This document shows positions 1,372 through 14,230 of a stretch of 22,864 nt of DNA, in pieces (within the stretch, counting starts at the first letter, position 1; each line of letters starts with the position of its first letter). The stretch is taken from IMG/VR virus record IMGVR_UViG_3300024048_000068, positions 1 through 22,864 of that record. One strand, given 5' to 3'. The notes under the pieces are model-generated. The model had not been told where the DNA came from and searched no databases. It saw only the letters and a list, made by a program, of their open reading frames with translations. A program made the translations under genes and the position numbers. This DNA is from a virus.

Positions 1372-1908
1372 CTATTTTATTAAAAATGTTTTGTTACAGA
1401 AAGGGCAAGATAGCTTGCCGTAATGTTTTTTTCTAACTACAATCTCAAGATTTTTAAGACGGTTGTCGTCTTTAATACCATTTTTATGATGGATCAATTC
1501 CCATGCTTTTAAGTGTCGACCTAAATGTTTTTCCATAACATATCGATGCTCTAAAATATACATATTTCTATATGAACCTGAATAGTTTGGTTTATAAACC
1601 TGCACATATCCACTCCATGTTTTTTTGCTACCTCCTTTCCAATTAGGCCCATGACCGTTAAAAAGCCTTTTTCTTCGACCTGTTGCTAATGCATTTTTCG
1701 TAGCCTCTTTTATATTCCTTAATACGCCATGTTTGCGCAATCTTCGTGTTATCGTGGTTGCACCAACATTAAACATTTTAGCTATTTCTATTGGACTTTT
1801 CTTATTTTTTACATACAGTTCTATCAACCTTTTTTCGTCTAAATCTATCCACCTCCAATGTTTTAAACCACACATTTCTCCTCTTACAAAGCGTCCTAAC
1901 TTATCCAT
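1372..1908 (-). CDS. HNH homing endonuclease with N-terminal HTH (copy 1)
   Basis: A 178-aa probable site-specific nicking or cutting endonuclease. Residues about 37-60 (SPIEIAKMFNVGATTITRRL) form a helix-turn-helix. The HNH_3-type core runs from about H121 (LEHRYVMEKHLGRHL) through H140-H141 and N143 to N149 and N153 (DDNRLKNLE). A CPFC motif at 168-171 suggests a terminal zinc knuckle. The gene sits between the exonuclease and coiled-coil genes of the recombination operon. Its stop codon overlaps the next gene's ribosome binding site, as expected of a free-standing homing endonuclease inserted between genes. GGGGG lies four bases before the ATG. A structured leader and its own promoter lie directly upstream. 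Confidence 0.88.
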   Translation of the reverse strand: MDKLGRFVRGEMCGLKHWRWIDLDEKRLIELYVKNKKSPIEIAKMFNVGATTITRRLRKHGVLRNIKEATKNALATGRRKRLFNGHGPNWKGGSKKTWSGYVQVYKPNYSGSYRNMYILEHRYVMEKHLGRHLKAWELIHHKNGIKDDNRLKNLEIVVRKKHYGKLSCPFCNKTFLIK

Positions 1909-1919
1909 TTTACCCCCAT

Positions 1920-2020
1920 AAAAAATGACAGCTTTCGGGTAGATTGAGGATAAGCGGTTAGCTTGTCCAACCCTACGGCTGCCATCGTTATAGTCATAAA
2001 AATACCGCCTTCCTCAATCT
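1920..2020 (-). ncRNA. HNH-associated pseudoknot RNA (copy 1)
   Basis: Read on the minus strand, the 5' arm AGATTGAGGAAGGCGG (2020-2005) pairs with CCGCTTATCCTCAATCT (1957-1941), with ten uninterrupted pairs at the base and four G-C pairs at the loop end. The 47-nt loop starts TATTTTTATG. Within it, ATGGCAGC (1985-1978) can pair with GCTGTCAT (1932-1925), which lies 3' of the stem, giving an 8-bp pseudoknot including one G-U pair. A six-T run follows immediately, then the HNH ribosome binding site. The same plan with different paired sequences occurs before the two other HNH genes. Function unknown. Confidence 0.75.
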
Positions 2021-2026
2021 GTTTTA

Positions 2027-2055
2027 AGCATATCATGGTTATTGCCTCTTGTCAA
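2027..2055 (-). promoter_or_regulatory. sigma70-type promoter of HNH module copy 1
   Basis: TTGACA (2055-2050), 17-nt spacer, TATGCT (2032-2027, four of six consensus bases). The expected +1, seven bases downstream, is position 2020, exactly the first base of the 5' arm of the structured RNA. The -35 box lies within the last codons (LDKRQ) of the exonuclease gene. Confidence 0.65.
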
Positions 2056-2611
2056 GCAAATTATACCGCTTCTTCCAGTTAAAAACATGCAGGCATGCAA
2101 GAAAAACCGCCTTGTCCGATGAGTCTGTGTATGGTGATATCTTGTAGCCTTTTTCGGTTAATTGAACGCCCAATCTTTGTTTGATTTTGATTTTGTAGTT
2201 TTCCTCTACTAACATTTGGTACGCCATTGTCTGTATAGCGGTTGATGGGTACATTTGGGTAGAAGTCTTAATGTCAGGCAATATACCCTTTTTCCTATGC
2301 CACCTGTCTGGCATTCCACCAAATCCGTATTTCTCTGATATTAACCTATTTTCTATTTCTTCAGGCTCGAATGACAGGTCATAGTCTTTTAAAAATTGCT
2401 TCCAACTCTCAAGATAGGGGACAAGAGGCTTGGTTTTTGGATTATTAACGAATTCAACAATATTCAATATTTTGCTATCCCACAATTCACAAGCCTTATG
2501 GACAGCACTACCAAAAGCGCAGGCCCTTCTTAACACATCTTCTTTTACCATATCAAAGTTGACCAACCCCGCTACTTGCAAAATCTGAGTAACTCTTGGT
2601 AAGTTAACCAT
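2039..2611 (-). CDS. PD-(D/E)XK phage exonuclease (YqaJ/Cas4-like)
   Basis: A 190-aa probable 5'-3' DNA exonuclease that would produce the single-stranded ends used by the Bet-like annealase encoded upstream. Visible motifs: H38 in GSAVHKA, FGGMPDR with D102, the catalytic LPDIKTS (D113, K115), and Q127...Y131 in AIQTMAYQ, all characteristic of the PD-(D/E)XK superfamily. I chose the ATG at 2611 because AGGAG lies nine bases upstream and MVNLPRVTQIL resembles the usual beginning of such proteins. A longer in-frame version from 2662 would overlap the HNH gene more. The HNH copy 2 stop codon lies inside the second and third codons of this gene. Confidence 0.8.
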   Translation of the reverse strand: MVNLPRVTQILQVAGLVNFDMVKEDVLRRACAFGSAVHKACELWDSKILNIVEFVNNPKTKPLVPYLESWKQFLKDYDLSFEPEEIENRLISEKYGFGGMPDRWHRKKGILPDIKTSTQMYPSTAIQTMAYQMLVEENYKIKIKQRLGVQLTEKGYKISPYTDSSDKAVFLACLHVFNWKKRYNLLDKRQ

Positions 2612-3230
2612 TCTTATGAACTCCTTTCTCACGGTGACATTTTTTGCAAAGAGTTTGACCATTATTTATATTCCATAATTCAGCACATTCCATTGCGTCA
2701 TTAACTGTTTTAACGTTGTTTTCACGCAATATTTTTATAAATGATTTTTTATGGTGAGCTTCTAAATAACAGCCCTTTGTTCCGCATTTTTGACAGGTAT
2801 AATTATCTCTTTCAAACACATCGCAACGCCATTGTCTATATTGGAAAGATGTCCGCAGTATTTTCCATAATGGCGTTAACCCGCCTTTCCAACTTGGACT
2901 ATTTTTACCTGCATATTCTGGCATTCTTTTACCTTTATTCCATGCAGATCTACCCTTAAGGGAAACACTAAGCGTTTTGCGTGTTTCTTGTGAAATAGTT
3001 TTGCCCATATTAGACCTACTTATTTTTCTCTTGGTTTCTTCAGAGTGATGTTTCCCTTCCATCGAAGGTGGTTTAGTCCCTAACCTTTTATGGGTTTCTC
3101 TCAATTTTAGCTTTGTTTCTTTTGATAAAGGCCCCGTTGACTTTCCTTTATTCCAAGCAACTTGTCCTTTATGGTTGGCCCTCTTCCCTAAAATATTACC
3201 TTTTTGGAATCCCTGTATTCCTGTTGGCAT
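2604..3230 (-). CDS. NUMOD3/HNH homing endonuclease (copy 2)
   Basis: A 208-aa probable homing endonuclease. Residues 1-115 contain repeated NUMOD3-like DNA-binding motifs (VAWNKGKS, KHHSEETKRKIS, SAWNKGK, SPSWKGG). The C-terminal classical HNH domain has C146-x2-C149, H159-H160, N190 and C195-x2-C198-H199. AGGAG six bases before the ATG at 3230 fixes the start. The gene lies between the annealase and exonuclease genes, which are normally adjacent. Its last codons overlap the exonuclease ribosome binding site and start codon. Its HNH subtype differs from the two other HNH proteins here, although the upstream RNA element is the same kind. Confidence 0.9.
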   Translation of the reverse strand: MPTGIQGFQKGNILGKRANHKGQVAWNKGKSTGPLSKETKLKLRETHKRLGTKPPSMEGKHHSEETKRKISRSNMGKTISQETRKTLSVSLKGRSAWNKGKRMPEYAGKNSPSWKGGLTPLWKILRTSFQYRQWRCDVFERDNYTCQKCGTKGCYLEAHHKKSFIKILRENNVKTVNDAMECAELWNINNGQTLCKKCHREKGVHKNG

Positions 3231-3244
3231 TTTATTCTCCTAAC

Positions 3245-3343
3245 AAAAAAGCCCTCGTTCTGCGGACAATCAAGGAAACGGTTAAGTTTCTTGCGCATAC
3301 TAAAGGGCTATTAGAACATAAAAAATCCGTATCCTTGATTGTC
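3245..3343 (-). ncRNA. HNH-associated pseudoknot RNA (copy 2)
   Basis: On the minus strand, the 5' arm GACAATCAAGGATACGG (3343-3327) pairs with CCGTTTCCTTGATTGTC (3281-3265) at 16 of 17 positions. The 45-nt loop starts ATTTTTTATGTT. AGCCCT in the loop (3309-3304) pairs with AGGGCT (3255-3250), 3' of the stem, as a pseudoknot. Six T residues follow. The 14-nt linker holding the 3' pseudoknot strand contains GAAC at the place where the other copies have GAAA. The predicted length is 99 nt if transcription ends at the T-run. Confidence 0.8.
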
Positions 3344-3349
3344 ATATTA

Positions 3350-3378
3350 ATTATACCATGTTTGTTAAGGCATGTCAA
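3350..3378 (-). promoter_or_regulatory. Consensus sigma70 promoter of HNH module copy 2
   Basis: Perfect TTGACA (3378-3373), 17-nt spacer and perfect TATAAT (3355-3350). The predicted +1 is 3343, the first base of the structured RNA arm. It starts just after the annealase stop codon and would also transcribe the HNH, exonuclease and later genes. Confidence 0.85.
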
Positions 3379-4869: not shown

Positions 4870-7800
4870 CTATTTTTGGAGTAGTTCTCTAAACATTGAC
4901 ATCATATACGGTGTAACTTTATTATCTTTGTAGGCTCTCCGAAACTTGCTTATTAAGATATTTTTTGTTTCTTGTTTTTCTTTACGGGTTGCGATTGCAA
5001 AAACATTAAGAGCTTCTTTTAAAGAGAGCCTTTTGTACGATTCAGCAAACGGTGGTAACTGGGCTTCTTTTATAGTACGCTTAAATGATTTAACTCCTAA
5101 ATATTGTGCAGCTTCTTTGTAATCTACAGGTTCACCTTTTCGGATTCTACTTTTAAATTGTTTTCTATATGCTGACTTTTCAAAATCTTCTTTGGTTTTT
5201 GATACATTAGGAATGCGGTCTATCATATATCTATACATTAACTTTTGTGCTGCACTTCGTGTAACATACGATGGCGCTGACGTAATACCTGTGATAGACA
5301 CAAAAGCAGTTACCTTTTTGCCTTCACCCGTTTTTTCCATTTTCTCATAGTTCTTAAACGAGAACGGCTTAGAGTAGTTTACTATATGTTTTGCTCTATC
5401 GTATATCTGGTCTACTAAGGGGTCTTTAAAATCTGATACCTCAACATTAAAGAAGTCTTTATTTTGCAACTGCTCATTTAAAAGCCCTATTAAGGGGTGA
5501 GCCTTGTTCCGTACTGTCTGTAATGGTCTTTGCGAATAAGCGTACACATCTTTAGCATAGGTAGGCAAAGATAACCTCTCAGGCGAGCCATCAGACTTAA
5601 TTCTGCCTGTTTTAGGAAAGAAATAGTCTTTAGGCTCTTCGGGGGGCTTGCCTGTCAACACATACTGAATTACAGCACCTAATATAGAATATATTATACT
5701 TGCACCTAATACATAACTCATTTTATGGCTTAGTAATTTATCGCCGCTTCTTAGTCTTTCTGCAGTATTTACAACATCAACAGCCCCACCGCCATATTCG
5801 CGCCAGGAACCTAAGTTCCACCCTACCGAACGAATAGCAAGCATAAGAGTATCTTTTAGAGTTTTATTCCAAAATAGATTATCGTATATCAACTGACCCA
5901 TTCTATTATCTACGCTATCCCACACAGACGCTAACTGGCCTTTTAATTGTTCATCAGTTATCTCTCCTGACTCCGCGCGCTCCATTTCATATTGAGCAAG
6001 TTTAGAAAATAACCCTAATTTACCAGTAGGGACATACCATTGCATTAAGGGTTTAGCAAGTGTTTCAAGTGTAGCTCCGAACACATTAAAAGGAATCTTC
6101 GCCACACCTTTCATTTTTTCAACACCAGATCCTTTTAAAACATCTCTAAATGTCTGCTCAAGTGCCTTAATCTGAGCGTTGTAGTAGTAAACGTCCATTC
6201 TATCTCTACCGCCTGCTTCTACTACTGTCCTTACCATCTCTTTTACTTTAGGGGATTTGATAGAGTCCATTTGCTGTCTGTATGCTTTTTTGATCCTTGT
6301 GCCTTCCCATACACTTAAAATAGGCGCAATAGGCACTTTTAAAACATCTATCATTCCTTGCACTCTTTGGCCTCTTGTGAAAAACTTCTTAATCGCTAAC
6401 CCGGTTGTAGAAGCCCATATATCGGTTGTAACATTTAACGCGTGGAAAGCACTCAGGGAAAGATTAACCTGATTCAAGATATTTCCCATTCCTCGTAATA
6501 CATTGTAAGAACCTGATACGAGCTTATTGTCAGCGTTTCGCAACCCTGGAGATAGGTGATTATTTATCAACCTTGCCAGATCCTCTGGCATATAATAATG
6601 ACCTAACGTAGTAAACCCAGGTATCTTTATCTTTGCATCTGCCTCGCCTAAAACTAATGACGGTTCTATGTCAAGTAACGGCCTTAACTCTGCGTGGCTG
6701 TTGATAAATTTCACGAAATATTTATACAAATCAGGGGCTACGCTCTGGAACTCTTTAGGTGCGTGGATTAAGGCCTCTACCAGTACAGCCTCTTTTTCTT
6801 TTGAGTTGCGGACATAATTTTTATATGAGTTAGAAGTCTTTGAACCTTTGAACCTTGCGTCTGCTAAATCTCTCCATTGTTTATCTATGTCTCTACGATA
6901 TTCAATAGCTTCTTTTGCGGGCTTGAAATACTGCTCGCCTGCTTTCTTGCCTTTTAGGTGAACCTTAGTTTCGCCCTCTTTGCGTCTGCCGATAGTATTA
7001 TATACATCATACTGATACCCCAATACATGACCTATCTCGTGGGCTAATACACTCTCTGGGCCTGCCCATCTTGTTCTGACTTTACCTTTGCCTATATCTT
7101 GAGCATACCCCCAACGCTTACCACCTATGCTTACGAACCTTTTTGTATCTATTCCGAGAGTCTTTGCTATATCTGTCAACTGTTCTACCAATATACTGTC
7201 AAACGCCTCTTTTTTAGTCATCTCTGGAGGCATAAACACAGTAAAGGCGTTGTCATTGACTCTTGCATATCCTTCAGGGCTTTTACCTCTTGAATATACA
7301 AACTTTGCTAAGCCTTGTTCTTTGGAGTCACGGATAATGTTCTGCGCCATTATATATCTATCCATTTCGTGTATCTTTAATAGCACAAGGTCAACAGGAT
7401 TATCGCTTACTAACTCTAAGCCTCTTTCTAATCCGTCTTTGACAGATACAATAATACGCTTTTTAAGAAACGACTTAGTTCCTTCCAATCGTTTCCTTCC
7501 CATAATTTGAGAGATTATATTTTTAGCTTTTTTTGGGTCTTTCCATATATGTGGAAAGTAGTTTTCATAATACCCCTCTAATTGCCCCTTGCCTAAGTCT
7601 TGTATGTTTTTTCGCCTGCCATCTAACAGCCCTCGTAGCATATCCGCAAAAGGCTGTAATGCCGACTTTGTAGAACGACCACTTTCCACATCATCTATAA
7701 ACTTATGGCTATCTTCTTTGTTCATCCACTGGAAAGCCCTATGCGCTTTTTGTGTTGCCTCTTGCGCCATTGCGTCATTATGTGCTAATGTGGCTATGTT

Positions 7801-10800
7801 TTTACGGAGTATCAAAGCACCTTTTTTAGTAATAGGTGATACTCTCGCAGGCGCTACTATTTTAAGAGCTTCCTTTATGATATTAGTTTCTTCCCTTGAG
7901 GGGATTTCTTCGTTTACTTTAGCGTAATCCGTTTTAGCTACTTTTTCTTTTGTGGATTTTTCAGAGGATTCTATAATGCCACCATATCCTGTGACTTTCG
8001 CTGCTGCAGAACTACCTGCTGTGCCGCCTGGCCCAAAGCCTTTGGGTGTTACATCTTCTATGCCTTTTTCTTTATCTGCTATCTTTTGTAGATGTTCTGG
8101 GAGTTTCTTATCAGATATCCCTAATTTCCTTTTCATAGTTTCTGCTTCAGCAGTACCCGGAGATACTAACTTATCAGGCTTAGATAATCCTTCTATAAGT
8201 TTTCTTTGTCTATCGGTAATATCCTTACCGTCTTTAAAGTCTTGAACTGCCTGTCTTGCTTCAGCTACAAGTTCTAATTGCATTTTTCTTTTATCTTGAG
8301 TTGGCTCAGTTTTTTTCTCCTGTGCCTTATTCCAGATGTCGGTGAGTTGGGATTTGGTTAAATCGCTTCTATCCATTGATTCTATGAACTGTTCCACTTT
8401 AGGGTATAATTCAGCATCTTGTTTGAGAAGATAAAGTCTTTCACTATCTATTTTACCTTCCTGTATTGAGGTGTCTGGTTTTTTCTTCTTTGCTATTACA
8501 TCGTCTATCTTTTTCTCAATGTTTTCATCTCTGCCTGACTTAGCTACAACACCTCTTACCGTTTCTTCGTTTACTTCTTTTTTAAATCTTTGGTATTCCT
8601 CAATTATATCTCTTTTAATATCTTCTACTGTGGGTTTCTCGTCATAATTAAATGTAGTTGCGTTACCCATTTCACCTAAAGAATGAGGATAAGATACTGT
8701 TACTTCGTATTTACTACCGTGCTTAATCCATACTTGGTCATCTTCTTTTTTAGGGTTAAGCTCTCGGATTTCATCTACAAATGCGTCTGCTTCTACAATA
8801 GATTTATTGGTGTTATATTCAGGTAAGGTAGTTTTGCGTAACTCTGCTAATAGGGGGTGTTCTGGTTTCTCTTGTTTCTTTAAAGTGTCTAAATATTTCT
8901 TATTCTTTTCTTTACCTTCTTTTGTCTGCTCGAAAGGTTTAGGTTCATATAAATCAGGATAGTTTGTTTCTGCCCATTGCTGAAACCCTTCTTCTGTAGG
9001 ATTTGCGTGGGTTTTATTATACTCTTTTTTTATCTCTAGTTCTTTTCTGTATGCTACATCTCGTCTTGCCTCATAGTCTTTTTCTTCTTGGCTTCCAGGT
9101 TCAACACCAAAGTCTTCCGTTACCCAGTCAGGTATTTCTTCCGTATCAACTTCGCCTTTAACTTCTTCTTCAAGATCGGCCTCAAGCTCTCTTTCAGCTT
9201 GCTTAATCTCATCTTGTCCATATCCTGCCTCCTCTTGCTCTTTTAGGTATTGTTCGTATTCTGTGTCATATTGGCTCTCTAAATCTTGTGCAAACAAATC
9301 AGCATTTCTTAATTGCTCATCTTTAAGTTGTTGCATCAAATAATCGCCAGGGTTCATATCTTCTGGGACTTTCAGTAATCCTTGATTTTGAAGCTGGTCT
9401 GCCATATCGTCTAATTCAGAAGCACCTTTTTTAAATACACCTATTGGAATCTTACTTTGCTTAATATCTTCATTCCACTTGTAATCTTTTTTAATCTGTT
9501 CTGTGCCTAATCCGCCACGTTCCTTTATTGCTGATATAAGTGTTTGTTTCTTTTTAGGCACCGTAGGCTTTGCTACAGGTTTCTCTACAGGTGTATCAAA
9601 TAATCTCTGCTCTACTCCTTTATCTACCGATGTCTTAGGAGCCGGGTGTAAAGGAACATCCAGTTCAGGCCGATGAGCAACTTGAGACTTGAGCCATTCT
9701 TCATACTTTCCTGACTCATCTATAGCGGATTTTTCCAGTTTGCTCTCTATCTCGTCAGCATTATTTACTATCTGATTTTTTACAGCTTCCTGCATAGCAT
9801 TTATATCTTGTGGAGAAACACCTTTATCGAGAGCATCTCTTATTAATCCATCTGTCTTTATACCTCTACCTGAAGTGAGTCCACCTAAAACACCACCAGA
9901 ACCTGCCCCACCGATAAAGCCTTCTATCATACCTTCCGTTAAATTTCTTGTTTTATCATATCCTATTCTTGCTATAAGGTTCTGCCATAATGCCTGTAAA
10001 ACTTCTTCTCCGCCCTCCTGGATAGCCCCTAAGAACATATCTTTGCCTAATTTACCACCGCCACCTTTAACGAAACGAGTTAAAGGCAGAACCTCTAATA
10101 TGGTTGTTCCTACAACAGATAAACCACCCATTACATTAGCAGGAACAACGTCTTTACCTGCTTGTCTTGCTTCCACATACTGCCCAGAACCTTCTATCAA
10201 GCCTAATGTGGCTGCACCAGCTAAAGGATTTCCAGTAGCAATACCTATTACTGTAGCACCTGCAAGTGATGGAATTGCCTCTGCAACAACAGCAACCGCC
10301 CTTGTCCATGAAGGATTTTGTATAAAACTACCTTTAAATGTTTCTATATCTGGAGCCTCAATGCCTCTTTGAGATTCTTCGCGCCAAAATGAATAAGCAT
10401 TTTTCCCCCATTTGGCTATCTTATTACCTACTTTTTCTTGGATATTTTTCTGCCATTCAGGACTACCTTTAGGAAGCAACTGCACCCCCGGAGTAAGGGC
10501 TTTTGCCACGTCTGATGGTATGCCTTCTGCTATATTCTCACCCATCCAGTATGTAGCGGCCCCCAAACCTGCAAACAACCCCTCAAAGCCTCTAAGAGAA
10601 GCCTTACCTGCTTCGGTGGCCATTTCTCTGCCCTCTTGTGCAACAGATTTTCCAGGCTCATCTAATACTAATCTTGGGCCAGTAGGTTCATCTAAAACCA
10701 ATCTTGGGCCTTGTCCTGCGTATGCTTCACTTACTTTAAATGGATTAAGAGAACTTATATCAAAACTTTCTCTTAAATCATCAATCCTGTTCTGCCACCC

Positions 10801-11349
10801 TCGCTCAAATTCTTTATACTTATCAGGATTATCTTTAATCAACTTTGCGTGATGTGCTTCACGATTTTTTAAAATATTATCTAATAACTTATTTTCTCCA
10901 TGCTGGTTAATATATTCACCTGTTTTTCTACGCGTTTTGTTTCCTATCATGCCATCTGACTTTGTTCCAACTACTTCTTGAAGCGTTTTAATGGCTCTCT
11001 TCGGATTTGACATTACACCGTAATCAAATAAAAGTTCTCCTGTTTTCTTAGGCAAAGTATGTATTTTAGGAATTTGAAAAAATTCGTTTTTATATATATC
11101 TTTTGCTTCATCAACAGTTATTTGTTCTACGCTTTGGTTAGGAAGATTTTTTCTTCTAAGATAGGAGTCATAAATATCTTTAGTAATACCTTTATTGGAA
11201 ATACCACCACCGCCTACTTCTCTTCTATTTATACCACCTTCATACCTTAAAACACGGTCATAAGGAGGATCTTCTTGATAGAACTCCTCTTCTATCAGGT
11301 TTAGTTTCCTGGGAGCTATTGGCTGGTTATCCAGAACTAATCTTGTCAT
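4870..11349 (-). CDS. 2159-aa polyvalent ejection protein: GH108 lysozyme + zincin
   Basis: A giant multidomain virion protein, probably packaged internally and ejected with DNA. Residues about 30-150 form a GH108-type muramidase: catalytic-type E37 in LRYEGGINRREVGGGGISNKGIT, then a peptidoglycan-binding-like region (NPKRAIKTLQEVVGTKSDGM). A 10-residue repeat, GPRLVLDEPT, spans 214-233 and echoes the N-terminal MTRLVLDNQP. Residues about 351-492 are hydrophobic and Gly-rich. A long acidic coiled section follows (about 690-1080). LAHEIGHVLG at about 1437-1441 is a zinc-metallopeptidase signature. A polyvalent-protein-like helical region lies at about 1600-1850, with a membrane helix near 1877-1900. 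It starts by ATGA overlap with the preceding gene. Lysozyme and large size resemble T7 gp16-type ejection proteins in role; this is inference. No free endolysin is present in the window. Confidence 0.85.
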   Translation of the reverse strand: MTRLVLDNQPIAPRKLNLIEEEFYQEDPPYDRVLRYEGGINRREVGGGGISNKGITKDIYDSYLRRKNLPNQSVEQITVDEAKDIYKNEFFQIPKIHTLPKKTGELLFDYGVMSNPKRAIKTLQEVVGTKSDGMIGNKTRRKTGEYINQHGENKLLDNILKNREAHHAKLIKDNPDKYKEFERGWQNRIDDLRESFDISSLNPFKVSEAYAGQGPRLVLDEPTGPRLVLDEPGKSVAQEGREMATEAGKASLRGFEGLFAGLGAATYWMGENIAEGIPSDVAKALTPGVQLLPKGSPEWQKNIQEKVGNKIAKWGKNAYSFWREESQRGIEAPDIETFKGSFIQNPSWTRAVAVVAEAIPSLAGATVIGIATGNPLAGAATLGLIEGSGQYVEARQAGKDVVPANVMGGLSVVGTTILEVLPLTRFVKGGGGKLGKDMFLGAIQEGGEEVLQALWQNLIARIGYDKTRNLTEGMIEGFIGGAGSGGVLGGLTSGRGIKTDGLIRDALDKGVSPQDINAMQEAVKNQIVNNADEIESKLEKSAIDESGKYEEWLKSQVAHRPELDVPLHPAPKTSVDKGVEQRLFDTPVEKPVAKPTVPKKKQTLISAIKERGGLGTEQIKKDYKWNEDIKQSKIPIGVFKKGASELDDMADQLQNQGLLKVPEDMNPGDYLMQQLKDEQLRNADLFAQDLESQYDTEYEQYLKEQEEAGYGQDEIKQAERELEADLEEEVKGEVDTEEIPDWVTEDFGVEPGSQEEKDYEARRDVAYRKELEIKKEYNKTHANPTEEGFQQWAETNYPDLYEPKPFEQTKEGKEKNKKYLDTLKKQEKPEHPLLAELRKTTLPEYNTNKSIVEADAFVDEIRELNPKKEDDQVWIKHGSKYEVTVSYPHSLGEMGNATTFNYDEKPTVEDIKRDIIEEYQRFKKEVNEETVRGVVAKSGRDENIEKKIDDVIAKKKKPDTSIQEGKIDSERLYLLKQDAELYPKVEQFIESMDRSDLTKSQLTDIWNKAQEKKTEPTQDKRKMQLELVAEARQAVQDFKDGKDITDRQRKLIEGLSKPDKLVSPGTAEAETMKRKLGISDKKLPEHLQKIADKEKGIEDVTPKGFGPGGTAGSSAAAKVTGYGGIIESSEKSTKEKVAKTDYAKVNEEIPSREETNIIKEALKIVAPARVSPITKKGALILRKNIATLAHNDAMAQEATQKAHRAFQWMNKEDSHKFIDDVESGRSTKSALQPFADMLRGLLDGRRKNIQDLGKGQLEGYYENYFPHIWKDPKKAKNIISQIMGRKRLEGTKSFLKKRIIVSVKDGLERGLELVSDNPVDLVLLKIHEMDRYIMAQNIIRDSKEQGLAKFVYSRGKSPEGYARVNDNAFTVFMPPEMTKKEAFDSILVEQLTDIAKTLGIDTKRFVSIGGKRWGYAQDIGKGKVRTRWAGPESVLAHEIGHVLGYQYDVYNTIGRRKEGETKVHLKGKKAGEQYFKPAKEAIEYRRDIDKQWRDLADARFKGSKTSNSYKNYVRNSKEKEAVLVEALIHAPKEFQSVAPDLYKYFVKFINSHAELRPLLDIEPSLVLGEADAKIKIPGFTTLGHYYMPEDLARLINNHLSPGLRNADNKLVSGSYNVLRGMGNILNQVNLSLSAFHALNVTTDIWASTTGLAIKKFFTRGQRVQGMIDVLKVPIAPILSVWEGTRIKKAYRQQMDSIKSPKVKEMVRTVVEAGGRDRMDVYYYNAQIKALEQTFRDVLKGSGVEKMKGVAKIPFNVFGATLETLAKPLMQWYVPTGKLGLFSKLAQYEMERAESGEITDEQLKGQLASVWDSVDNRMGQLIYDNLFWNKTLKDTLMLAIRSVGWNLGSWREYGGGAVDVVNTAERLRSGDKLLSHKMSYVLGASIIYSILGAVIQYVLTGKPPEEPKDYFFPKTGRIKSDGSPERLSLPTYAKDVYAYSQRPLQTVRNKAHPLIGLLNEQLQNKDFFNVEVSDFKDPLVDQIYDRAKHIVNYSKPFSFKNYEKMEKTGEGKKVTAFVSITGITSAPSYVTRSAAQKLMYRYMIDRIPNVSKTKEDFEKSAYRKQFKSRIRKGEPVDYKEAAQYLGVKSFKRTIKEAQLPPFAESYKRLSLKEALNVFAIATRKEKQETKNILISKFRRAYKDNKVTPYMMSMFRELLQK
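10657..10710 (-). repeat. 30-bp-period direct repeat encoding GPRLVLDEPT
   Basis: Two copies (10687-10710 and 10657-10680) of a 24-nt near-identical block spaced 30 bp apart, encoding tandem PRLVLDEP. A third, weaker copy encodes residues 2-10 at the start of the same protein. Confidence 0.8.
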
Positions 11350-12101
11350 TCTTCAATCCGATACTTTTTACCGTTTTGCATAACCTTCCATACACCATCC
11401 TCTAAAAACGCGTTGGGGTATTCTTCATAAGGAGATGGCTCTGATGATATTTCTTCCGAATCCCCATCAGATAAACTTGCTAAAAATTCTTCATCAGATA
11501 ATTTTGTAGTCGAAGTTTTTTCCTTATAATGCAGTTTTTTTGCCTCTGTTGCTGTTTTTCCTGTTTTATCTTGAGCTTGCCTACTCAACTGTGCAAGGAA
11601 TGGGTCTCTTGCATCACCTCTATCATATTCAGAATATTGCTCTACAAATTCAGGAGAAGCTACTCCTACTCTTTGGCCACCTACACTGGCTGTAGTGCCT
11701 GCTCCTGCCATTATGTTTCTTGCCTCTGGTTCTGTGTACCCTTCGCTTTGCAGTGTATTAAGTTCGCCTGCTCGATAGATGTCTATGCTTTTCTCTAACT
11801 CCATTTTCTTTTTCTGCTCGTTTAATTCCGCATTACCTACCTGGCTTTTTTTGACTTTCATATTCATATCGTGTAACTGTGTGGCTTGTTTAAATTCTTC
11901 CCTTTCGCGTTGCATCGCCTCCGGGCTTGTTTCAAACTCTAACTTCTTGAGCTGTGCGTCCTTGACCTTTTTGTTGAGCTGAAACTCCTCATCTTCTCTA
12001 CGGAGTTTTTCTTTAGCCTGAGAGATATTCACGAGGTTTGTTACTGCCTTGTCAATTCCTCCTGCGATACCTGCCAGTATACTGAGTGTTCTTTCGCTCA
12101 T
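11346..12101 (-). CDS. Coiled-coil internal virion protein (T7 gp15-position)
   Basis: A 251-aa protein, highly charged and helical over residues about 30-120 (Lys/Glu/Gln-rich, EEFQLNKKVKDAQLKKLE and similar), with an acidic Ser/Glu tail and a short C-terminal ordered end (AFLEDGVWKVMQNGKKYRI). The start MSERTLSIL at 12101 is chosen for AAGGAG six bases upstream, next to the preceding stop codon. It ends by ATGA overlap with the giant ejection protein. Its place between a Gly-rich internal protein and a lysozyme-bearing giant protein parallels the middle ejection protein of podoviruses. No sequence signature confirms this. Confidence 0.7.
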   Translation of the reverse strand: MSERTLSILAGIAGGIDKAVTNLVNISQAKEKLRREDEEFQLNKKVKDAQLKKLEFETSPEAMQREREEFKQATQLHDMNMKVKKSQVGNAELNEQKKKMELEKSIDIYRAGELNTLQSEGYTEPEARNIMAGAGTTASVGGQRVGVASPEFVEQYSEYDRGDARDPFLAQLSRQAQDKTGKTATEAKKLHYKEKTSTTKLSDEEFLASLSDGDSEEISSEPSPYEEYPNAFLEDGVWKVMQNGKKYRIEE

Positions 12102-12112
12102 AGTTTTCTCCT

Positions 12113-12805
12113 TTAGCGAGGAAATCCTCCACCCCACGCATATTGTTTAGGCGTTGACCTGGTTGTTGCGCCACTCGCTGCTTTACCTGCGGCAGAACCT
12201 AATGTTCCACCTACCATAGCGCCTGCAGGCCCACCTATCATAGCTCCACCGATCGTGCCAAGAGCCCCGATTCCAGACTCTAATATTTTTCCCCACATAG
12301 CATTCTTACTGGCTTTCTTAGCATCTTCTCTTTCCTGTTCTTTTAATCTTAAATTCTCATTAAATTGGTCAGCTTGTAATTGAAGTCCTGCACCCTGCAT
12401 ACCATACTGATTCTCTTGTCCTGCATATTGTAACCCTGCGCCTCTAACACCAGAGATAGTGTCTAACCCTGTGCCGAGTAAGGACTGTTTTTCTCCTGCG
12501 GCTTTTTGGTAGTCTGTCCAGGATAGATTGGTAGTAGCGTCTGCGGTTGCTTTAGCGATAGCCGATAGACCTACTCCACCCTTGATATTCCTACGGACTA
12601 AGTTCTCGTTTACCGCAGTGGCAGTATCTCTGTTTACTAAGGCAAGCATATCCTGGAATTGTTTAGAATTTGTCTGCCCCATGCCTTGATAAAACTCAGG
12701 CAATTCACCTCCCAATATTCCCTTGCCTGTAGTATATGACAGGTCTTGCGATTTCTTAAAATAAGGGTCTGTTTTAAAATCTGGTAAATTTACACTTATA
12801 GCCAT
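12113..12805 (-). CDS. Gly-zipper internal virion protein (T7 gp14-position)
   Basis: A 230-aa protein. The middle is rich in Gln/Gly/Ala (GAGLQYAGQENQYGMQGAGLQLQ), followed by a charged helix (LRLKEQEREDAKKASK) and a glycine-zipper membrane segment near residues 175-210 (GIGALGTIGGAMIGGPAGAM). Such a Gly-zipper tail is typical of small podoviral internal/ejection proteins that enter the cell envelope. AAGGAG six bases before the ATG at 12805 fixes the start. It is encoded directly after the collar fibre and before the coiled-coil internal protein. The ejection role is inferred from composition and order. Confidence 0.72.
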   Translation of the reverse strand: MAISVNLPDFKTDPYFKKSQDLSYTTGKGILGGELPEFYQGMGQTNSKQFQDMLALVNRDTATAVNENLVRRNIKGGVGLSAIAKATADATTNLSWTDYQKAAGEKQSLLGTGLDTISGVRGAGLQYAGQENQYGMQGAGLQLQADQFNENLRLKEQEREDAKKASKNAMWGKILESGIGALGTIGGAMIGGPAGAMVGGTLGSAAGKAASGATTRSTPKQYAWGGGFPR

Positions 12806-12820
12806 ATTATTCTCCTTTTT

Positions 12821-14230
12821 TTATAGCTTTTGTATATACGCTAATGCATAGTAAGGGTTAATTACATTGCTTACTGTAAATATTGGATGATAGCCTGGAT
12901 CGCCCCTAAGTTCTGCTCCTGTAGCAGCAGTAGCAGTACAGGTTAAAGAACTCTCCGTTCCTCCGATAGTACCACCGCCTGACGCCCCTGGAGTAGCTAA
13001 GTTACCCGCGCCGATGACAAATCTATCGGTTAAATCAGGCGTTCCGTTATCTCCATCACACAGCACCCACCCTGTAGGAATATCGCTAGTCGTGCCTGAC
13101 CACATTACTATTACACCTGAAGGTATAACGGAATCCCTATCATCTACTATGCTTGTTATATTGCTATCTGAATCATTAGTAAAATACCCTAATCTTAAAT
13201 AATAAGTAACTCCCGACGGAAGTGACGAGCTTTCTGATACCTTAATAGTAAAGGTAGTATCTGATACCGCACTCATAACTGCGTACACATAATATGTAGT
13301 GCTTGCCGCCTCAGAACCTGTATCAATATCATCCCAATCTACCGTAGTGGCGGATGAGTTTCTTGCCATTAACCTTATCGAGCCAGAGGTATTAGAGCAT
13401 ACTACTGAGCCTATACCTACGGTTAATTCAGAGGCTGAACTGTAAGCAAGTTTACATCCAAACCTGCCATCTGCTAAAAAGTTATCTAATGGGGCTACGA
13501 TATTATCGTATATAGCACTATCTATTGTACCCGGATTTATTGAGCCTAAAACAGTTTCAGCACCGTCACCATTTCGCCAGTTTTCGACACAGTATCCATT
13601 ATTTACTTGACACAACGATATAGATAATGCTATAATTATAGTAGCTAAAGAAATTACGGATTTTTTATGTTTAAAATGGGCGATGAGTAGGTCTTGAAAA
13701 AACAACCGTTTTTTCTTTAGCTGACTGAAAGTCGCCTTTTTAATTTGGAGGATGTTATGCCTTTTAAAAAAGGACAAATTGCTTGGAACAAAGGTAAAAA
13801 ATGGTCTAAAAAAATACGCACAAAATTTGGTATTGCTCATATTGGCAAAAAACATTCTCAAGCAACTAAATTGAAAATGAGTCTTTCTCGTAAAGGCAAG
13901 AAAATTCGGAGTCGGAAAGGTGGACACATTATCCAAAATGGATATGTATTTATTAAAATGTCTGAGCATCCTTTCTGTAATGGAAGCGGTTATGTTGCTG
14001 AACATCGTCTTGTAATGGAGAAACATCTTGATAGATACCTTACAAAAAAAGAGAGAGTTCACCATAAAGGTATTAAATATCCTATTGGCTCTATTAAGAA
14101 TAAGCAGGACAACAGAATTGAAAATCTTCAGTTGTTTGATAGCTGTGGTTATCATCTTAGTTTTCACCTTACTCTTAATCGCCTTAAAACAAAACTTTAA
14201 AATCATTAACACTATCCATAATCTTTTCAT
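12821..14230 (-). CDS. Tail-collar fibre gene with HNH element inserted in its signal peptide
   Basis: The C-terminal part is a phage tail-collar fibre: IPTGWVLCDGDNGTPDLTDRFVIGAG is the tail-collar domain signature and the gene ends YYALAYIQKL. The natural start appears to be ATG 14230, with AAAGGAG five bases upstream, encoding MKRLWIVLMI, the beginning of a Sec signal peptide. Immediately after codon 10 the sequence becomes the antisense of the HNH copy 3 gene and leader. The collar-like sequence resumes around residues 196-215 (IIALSISLCQVNNGYC, then VENWRNGDG). The reading frame stays open throughout, so a 469-aa fusion with about 190 foreign basic, hydrophobic residues could be made. 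Whether it is functional is unknown. No ATG or GTG close to the rejoining point would restore a normal signal peptide; a TTG near codon 175 (13699-13697) is a weak candidate. Confidence 0.7.
   Translation of the reverse strand: MKRLWIVLMILKFCFKAIKSKVKTKMITTAIKQLKIFNSVVLLILNRANRIFNTFMVNSLFFCKVSIKMFLHYKTMFSNITASITERMLRHFNKYISILDNVSTFPTPNFLAFTRKTHFQFSCLRMFFANMSNTKFCAYFFRPFFTFVPSNLSFFKRHNILQIKKATFSQLKKKRLFFQDLLIAHFKHKKSVISLATIIIALSISLCQVNNGYCVENWRNGDGAETVLGSINPGTIDSAIYDNIVAPLDNFLADGRFGCKLAYSSASELTVGIGSVVCSNTSGSIRLMARNSSATTVDWDDIDTGSEAASTTYYVYAVMSAVSDTTFTIKVSESSSLPSGVTYYLRLGYFTNDSDSNITSIVDDRDSVIPSGVIVMWSGTTSDIPTGWVLCDGDNGTPDLTDRFVIGAGNLATPGASGGGTIGGTESSLTCTATAATGAELRGDPGYHPIFTVSNVINPYYALAYIQKL
13607..13636 (+). 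promoter_or_regulatory. Consensus sigma70 promoter of HNH module copy 3
   Basis: Perfect TTGACA (13607-13612), 18-nt spacer, perfect TATAAT (13631-13636). The predicted +1 is 13643, the first base of the structured RNA arm, as in the two other copies. It points against the late operon and lies within the region encoding the collar protein's signal peptide on the other strand. Confidence 0.85.
13643..13741 (+). ncRNA. HNH-associated pseudoknot RNA (copy 3)
   Basis: The 5' arm AGCTAAAGAAATTACGG (13643-13659) pairs with CCGTTTTTTCTTTAGCT (13706-13722) at 15 of 17 positions. The 46-nt loop begins ATTTTTTATGTT, the same block as copy 2. GGCGAT (13679-13684) pairs with GTCGCC (13731-13736), 3' of the stem, as a pseudoknot, and five T residues follow. 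The 14-nt linker begins GACTGAAAGT. The predicted length is 99 nt if ended at the T-run. Confidence 0.8.
13757..14200 (+). CDS. NUMOD3/HNH homing endonuclease (copy 3)
   Basis: A 147-aa probable homing endonuclease. The N-terminus FKKGQIAWNKGKKW is a NUMOD3-type DNA-binding motif also seen in copy 2. The HNH_3 core includes AEHRLVMEKHLDRYL (H83), VHHKG (H102-H103) and QDNRIENLQL (N119, N123), closely resembling copy 1 but with a short insertion after HHKGIK. GGAGG six bases upstream selects the ATG at 13757 over an in-frame TTG at 13745. It lies inside, and opposite to, the collar fibre gene. Its 12 Leu and 10 Ser codons include no TTA, CTA or TCA, which is why the opposite-strand frame is open. 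Confidence 0.88.
   Translation: MPFKKGQIAWNKGKKWSKKIRTKFGIAHIGKKHSQATKLKMSLSRKGKKIRSRKGGHIIQNGYVFIKMSEHPFCNGSGYVAEHRLVMEKHLDRYLTKKERVHHKGIKYPIGSIKNKQDNRIENLQLFDSCGYHLSFHLTLNRLKTKL

Follow-up and report, generated by a model that had tools for sequence, protein, structure and literature searches.

A predicted pseudoknotted RNA leader upstream of homing-type nuclease genes in a phage genome fragment and its relatives

Homing endonucleases must be expressed strongly enough to spread, and not so strongly that they harm the phage that carries them. To our knowledge, the means by which the expression of free-standing homing endonucleases is controlled in phages other than T4 are largely unknown. 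The question is raised here by a phage fragment in which each of three HNH genes has the same RNA element, of about 100 nucleotides, directly upstream: what fold does that element adopt, how is it joined to the gene that follows, and in what way might it influence that gene's expression?

Three nuclease cassettes in one phage fragment

The window analysed is an entire IMG/VR record, a phage fragment of 22.9 kb (22,864 nucleotides) that encodes RecT (Pfam PF03837), an exonuclease (phrog_298), tail-type proteins and a protein of 2159 residues with a GH108 lysozyme domain. The exonuclease gene is flanked by two HNH genes in its own orientation, forming the run recT-HNH-exo-HNH, and a third HNH gene lies antisense among the tail genes. 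The gene between recT and the exonuclease gene (E2; 2604..3230, minus strand) encodes NUMOD3 and a Cys-type HNH domain; the gene beyond the exonuclease (E1; 1372..1908, minus strand) encodes an HNH_3 endonuclease (Pfam PF13392; phrog_20891); and the gene antisense to the surrounding tail genes (E3; 13757..14200, plus strand) is of homing-endonuclease type, with NUMOD3 and an HNH domain of phrog_20891. At 2604-2662 (minus strand) the stop codon of the E2 nuclease overlaps the exonuclease start codon and the exonuclease ribosome-binding site lies inside the nuclease 3' end, a layout that would favour retention of the nuclease gene. The 2159-residue reading frame (4870-11349, minus strand) combines a GH108/peptidoglycan-binding N-terminus with long further regions that include an AHEIGH metallopeptidase-like motif, and its product resembles polyvalent or injected virion proteins.

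Comparison with related phages demonstrated that the cassettes are insertions: both sides of the exonuclease gene are empty of nuclease in relatives L050 and L051, and the tail-gene site lacks a nuclease in G015 and L127, such that each nuclease gene stands between phage genes at a site that is empty elsewhere, as is expected of free-standing homing cassettes. The left edge of the insertions falls near the -35 box of the promoter described below. Identity to L018 over 11900-13200 of the window is at first uneven (56-100%) and then climbs to a constant 100% through the E3 nuclease region; recent recombination or homing would fit such a mosaic. Opposite E3, the antisense tail gene (13560-13760, minus strand) has no obvious start codon: HKKSVISLATIIIALSISLC stands in its frame at the point where L127, a relative, has MRRLLLVIMVLSLAVPAFA, and its signal-peptide codons double as the E3 promoter and the first helix of the E3 element.

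Fold and covariation of the element

The original prediction placed three structured elements at 13643-13741 (plus strand), 3343-3245 and 2020-1920 (both minus strand), and all three are present, each before an HNH gene. The E3 element (13643-13741, plus strand, about 100 nucleotides) follows an extended -10 sigma70 promoter, TTGACA-18-TATAAT (13607..13636), that matches at 12 of 12 positions and has TG before the -10 box. It opens with the 5' arm of helix P1, AGCTAAAGAAATTACGG (13643..13659), at whose base (13643) transcription is predicted to start; this arm pairs at 15 of 17 positions with the covarying 3' arm, CCGTTTTTTCTTTAGCT (13706..13722). Between them lie loop L1, ATTTTTTATGTTTAAAATG (13660..13678), with a conserved U-run, AU(U)G and A-tract in conserved unpaired columns; the P2 5' strand GGCGAT (13679..13684); AGTA (13686..13689), which is, by alignment, the 5' half of an AGUA/GAA internal loop; and the P3 5' strand GGTC (13690..13693). 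Downstream of P1, the P3 3' strand GACT (13723-13726) and the GAA half of the internal loop occupy 13723..13729, and are followed by the P2 3' strand GTCGCC (13731..13736), a U-tract and spacer (13737..13746) and a Shine-Dalgarno sequence, GGAGG, read directly from the sequence (13747..13751).

The two remaining elements, both on the minus strand, repeat this plan. For E2, a TTGACA-17-TATAAT promoter (3350..3378; 12 of 12 with TG) directly follows the recT stop codon, and the element (3245..3343) comprises P1 (3343-3327/3281-3265), P2 (3308-3303 with 3256-3251), P3 (3297-3294/3264-3261), an internal loop of AGTA (3301-3298) and GAA (3260-3258), and a terminal U-tract. For E1, a TTGACA-17-TATGCT promoter (2027..2055; 10 of 12 with TG) overlaps the final codons of the exonuclease gene; the element (1920..2021) comprises P1 (2021-2005/1957-1941, with one bulge), P2 (GGCAGC, 1983-1978, with GCTGTC, 1932-1927), P3 (1973-1970/1940-1937) around a variant internal loop, CGTA/GAAA, and again a terminal U-tract. 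The arm pairing first reported (15/17, 16/17 and about 16) holds for E3 and E2, where every pair is Watson-Crick, and is reached in E1 only if one bulged A is allowed, the ungapped count being 11/17; at random window positions, pairing of at least 15/17 has a probability of 2.5e-5. The 14-nucleotide linker that had been described as carrying a fixed GAA does carry it, as half of the internal loop, and proves to contain the 3' strand of the covarying helix P3 as well. The original prediction did not include that helix, the promoter upstream of each of these three copies or the constant distance to the start codon.

Homologous elements were collected by an exact-pattern scan of viral contigs, which returned 39 stretches (about half with long complementary arms correctly placed), and the set was enlarged by further patterns, a 17-copy covariance model and whole-record searches. 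The resulting collection holds 36 distinct copies (E < 1e-7) from about 30 IMG/VR records, several of which carry two or three. Because the covariance searches were confined to loci that exact patterns had already located, the true diversity of the family, and the share of neighbours that are not nucleases, are underestimated. Among isolate phages and plasmids, blastn gave no credible match to the leaders tried; among cellular genomes, one MAG scaffold matched, and a search of 383 further genomes of its phylum gave none.

Three helices, P1 (14 pairs), P2 (5) and P3 (4), 23 pairs in all, were tested on a sequence-only MAFFT alignment. Across 17 copies, 91.8% of cells are paired and the covariation score is 0.717, versus 0.216 for shuffled and 0.193 for the best slid controls; across all 36 copies, 89.1% are paired and the score is 0.682, the controls reaching 0.229 when shuffled and no more than 0.250 when slid, with the reservation that the copies are related and shuffle counts, here and below, are not probabilities. 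Changes on both sides of a pair are found in 21 of the 23 pairs among the 36 copies. The original proposal of a selected fold with two covarying helices that cross is thereby borne out, at values far above both kinds of control. In 5' to 3' order the parts are P1a, L1, P2a, AGTA, P3a, L2, P1b, P3b, GAA, P2b and U-tract; because of that strand order, P2 and P3 form a single helix interrupted by AGUA/GAA, and in the fold, as read from covariation, this second helix crosses the long hairpin P1.

The internal loop is usually AGUA/GAA, often with an adjacent U.C or G.A, and is replaced by CGUA/GAAA in E1 and its relatives and by UGGAU/UGAAG in L114 and L122. In sequence, AGUA/GAA carries the signature of a loop E, or sarcin-ricin, motif. 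Two further regions are conserved though unpaired: L1, with its U-run, AU(U)G and A-tract, and the end of L2, with UUAA before CCG.

Promoter, start codon and downstream genes

A TTGACA/TATAAT promoter matching at no fewer than 10 of 12 positions lies upstream of 33 of the 36 copies, and such a match is found in 3.4% of upstream sequences once they are shuffled; TG precedes the -10 box in 31. The distance from the -10 box to the base of P1 is 5-7 nucleotides in 34 of 36 copies, which, by the usual sigma70 spacing, would place the transcript start at P1. Towards the gene, the GAA and the start codon are separated by 28-30 nucleotides in 29 of 34 copies, and at least five T fall within the eight nucleotides after P2 in 33 of 36. 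Base composition is correspondingly biased, with A at 56% just before P2, and T at 73% and A at 18% just after it (over 35 copies for the U-tract and spacer); the spacers between Shine-Dalgarno and AUG are, by contrast, A-rich. The U-tract leads into the Shine-Dalgarno sequence, which lies 3' of, and outside, all covarying helices. The figures for spacing, U-tract and folding energy rest on a hand-anchored parse, in which the second helix is wrongly placed for a few copies (L012_7809 and L121 among them); the 36-copy covariation counts are independent of it.

The genes downstream of the 36 copies encode homing-type nucleases, except in three decayed cases (L031, L023 and L047) where the leader is intact and the nuclease gene is deleted or truncated. 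These nucleases, 110-310 residues in length and with no RuvC among their Pfam hits, are mostly HNH_3/NUMOD3 proteins, and also include HNH PF01844, phrog_374/3377-type and GIY-YIG SegE-like (L075) proteins, part of them having been scanned against the library and the others assigned by similarity to those scanned. Similarity between leaders is almost uncoupled from similarity between the reading frames they precede (Spearman 0.14): at the post-exonuclease site, for instance, the leaders of the window and of L081 are 94% identical, and the nucleases match at only 44% over 73 residues.

Related phages include some nuclease genes that carry this promoter and lack the leader, from which it follows that the leader is a separable module. 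In L101, a leader-bearing phage, a homing-type gene around 9125-9160 (plus strand) has its ATG about 7 nucleotides after TATACT, and the mRNA of this gene (L101:9088) is probably leaderless; in L007 the same promoter is followed by a short, ordinary leader. Nor is the leader family confined to nucleases, since G010 has a diverged copy, scoring 35 bits (E 2e-6), with a replisome-organizer gene (phrog_13246) downstream. This copy (L142 247-361, or G010:C1:27746-27860) has a longer P2 and a U7 tract.

Possible modes of action and comparison with known systems

Because promoter, fold and ribosome-binding site are so tightly joined, we infer that the leader acts within its own transcript, where it probably controls the timing or strength of nuclease production; a regulatory leader was among the roles originally suggested, and the promoter, the fold and the fixed spacing to ribosome-binding site and start codon all argue for it. 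The reading that we prefer, tentatively and at a little under even confidence, is that of a cis-acting 5' leader RNA, most likely an attenuator, within a self-contained free-standing homing-gene cassette. The order of that cassette would be a sigma70 promoter, a pseudoknotted leader of about 100 nucleotides, a ribosome-binding site and the nuclease reading frame, and the leader would determine the amount or timing of nuclease production from that cassette's transcript. The second helix is laid out like an intrinsic terminator, with an A-tract, the GC-rich P2, the internal loop, P3 and a U-tract in turn, and the 3' arm of P1 lies within its loop. Depending on whether P1 and the conserved loops were in place when this hairpin formed, transcription would yield either a short RNA of about 100 nucleotides or a read-through product extending into the ribosome-binding site and the gene.

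The elements do carry a GC-rich stem directly followed by a U-tract, as intrinsic terminators do. A standard terminator scan, restricted to loops of 3-8 nucleotides, found none at the elements, because the loop here (L2 plus P1b) is far longer than the standard. Folds containing only P1 and folds containing only P2 and P3 have energies of the same order, and nested minimum-free-energy prediction chooses P1 or the second helix depending on the copy; it is on account of the terminator layout, these similar energies and the alternation between nested predictions that attenuation is ranked first, and an effect on translation or stability second. Several observations weigh against this reading. The downstream genes of the E2/E1 run are presumably needed by the phage, and termination must be weak or conditional, since strong terminators in the recT-HNH-exo-HNH run would cut those genes off; P1 shares no bases with the second helix, and the two could coexist as a stable knot without any switching; the U-rich stretch before the Shine-Dalgarno sequence also fits simple enhancement of translation; and some relatives of these nuclease genes lack the leader.

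The main rival is a cis-acting leader that operates after transcription and without termination, which we consider possible and rather unlikely: a knot burying the 5' end, with consequences for mRNA stability, and keeping a U-rich ribosome-binding site open at a set distance, or else a ribosome-binding site occluded by L1. The predicted transcript start at the base of P1, the near-invariant 28-30 nucleotides from GAA to start codon and the position of the Shine-Dalgarno sequence directly after the U-tract are all compatible with it, and hairpins at ribosome-binding sites control homing genes in T4 (PMC2988022). The complementarity of L1 to the ribosome-binding site (-3.9 kcal/mol) also exceeds that of its own shuffles (-2.9 kcal/mol; 0/200), but L1 pairs with its own site no better than with those of other copies (p 0.09), and the idea of L1 as an anti-RBS strand was set aside for that want of cognate specificity. 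Moreover, no covarying helix includes the Shine-Dalgarno sequence, and a GC-rich P2 beside a U-tract with a matching A-tract would be left unexplained. Comparable, and likewise limited, confidence is given to the proposal that the element represents a new riboswitch-like or factor-sensing RNA class that times selfish homing genes, having been swapped among unrelated nucleases and derived perhaps from the leader of a core replication gene; such a class would be marked by the pseudoknot, the loop-E-type internal loop and the conserved U-rich and UUAACC loops.

Readings that detach the element from its gene fare less well. The early suggestion of a free, trans-acting small RNA of about 100 nucleotides, which would end at the U-tract and merely travel with nuclease genes, accounts for the element's own promoter, compact fold and terminal U-tract and for its survival in L031, L023 and L047, but such copies can reflect recent decay, and the constant position on the same strand, immediately before a reading frame with a Shine-Dalgarno sequence and at fixed spacing from its start codon, makes it improbable. 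Folded DNA used in mobility, as a cleavage-site mimic or hairpin end, had been suggested as well, and the element does move with mobile genes whose three insertion sites in the window are all empty in relatives; we nevertheless judge it very improbable, because the arms vary, the RNA-type loops are conserved, and both G-U pairs and a loop-E motif occur, which speaks for RNA, because the element carries a promoter that homologous nuclease genes possess without it, and because one copy lies upstream of a replication gene. Least credible of all is a guide or scaffold RNA of the HEARO/OMEGA kind: HNH genes are indeed adjacent, but HEARO is absent from the Rfam matches, and the neighbours are small homing-type nucleases of several families, GIY-YIG among them, with no RuvC domain detected by Pfam.

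Several more specific roles for the conserved loops were rejected. The ATG in the loop, a candidate start for an upstream reading frame, seemed invariant because the scans that found the copies required it; a scan free of that requirement returned variants with ATTG and ATA. The frame stays open in part of the copies and is closed in the rest, and the ATG is therefore no conserved start codon. A CsrA-type GGA site is contradicted by several copies with CGGT in place of CGGA. The UUAACC loop was also considered as a partner for 16S rRNA, an idea dropped because E3, E1 and other copies lack the full motif.

The leader family is not in Rfam and is previously uncatalogued: Rfam 15 yielded no family match in the window (E<=5), in six homologue loci (E<=1) or in element pieces of 131 bases (E<=10), and the literature searched, with incomplete coverage, held no description of it. 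The 13 matches returned at E<=10 from the 131-base scan, all far below gathering scores and belonging to miRNA, snoRNA and similar families, are read as chance. The general shape of the skipping-rope RNA, a long hairpin with a pseudoknot, is close to that described here. It is catalogued as RF02924, and its pseudoknot has been reported (PMC7779021). The pseudoknotted long hairpin is what the two have in common, but the resemblance suggested at the outset does not extend further, RF02924 being absent from the scans of window and homologues, even at E<=10 on the 131-base piece. HEARO and OMEGA RNAs share with these leaders a position beside an HNH-containing reading frame; they differ in that no such model, including the HEARO model named in the original prediction, matched in the same scans, and in that the neighbours here are not IscB or IsrB, which join RuvC with HNH.

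Fluoride, preQ1 and SAM-II leaders, as riboswitches and attenuators, share with the present element the succession of promoter, compact pseudoknot with conserved loops, U-tract or ribosome-binding site, and gene; the element differs in having no Rfam match and in serving mobile nuclease genes. Among phage homing genes, those of T4 and its relatives (I-TevI, I-TevII, I-TevIII, segB and Aeh1 mobE) are under translational control by hairpins that mask the ribosome-binding site, the structure hiding that site only on read-through RNA and a late promoter being placed so as to exclude the structure, and in seg43(25) a hairpin precedes a free ribosome-binding site (PMC2988022). An RNA structure just before a phage homing gene, with a dedicated promoter, is common to both systems. 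In the cassettes described here, by contrast, the promoter lies upstream of the whole structure, no stable stem includes the Shine-Dalgarno sequence, and the ribosome-binding site is outside the structure altogether; seg43(25) is nearest in layout, but has a single simple hairpin. The present leader is a pseudoknot with an internal-loop motif, short and well defined by covariation, with conserved loops that may bind something, and it is common to unrelated nuclease families, for which one leader would constitute a portable expression-control module for mobile genes.
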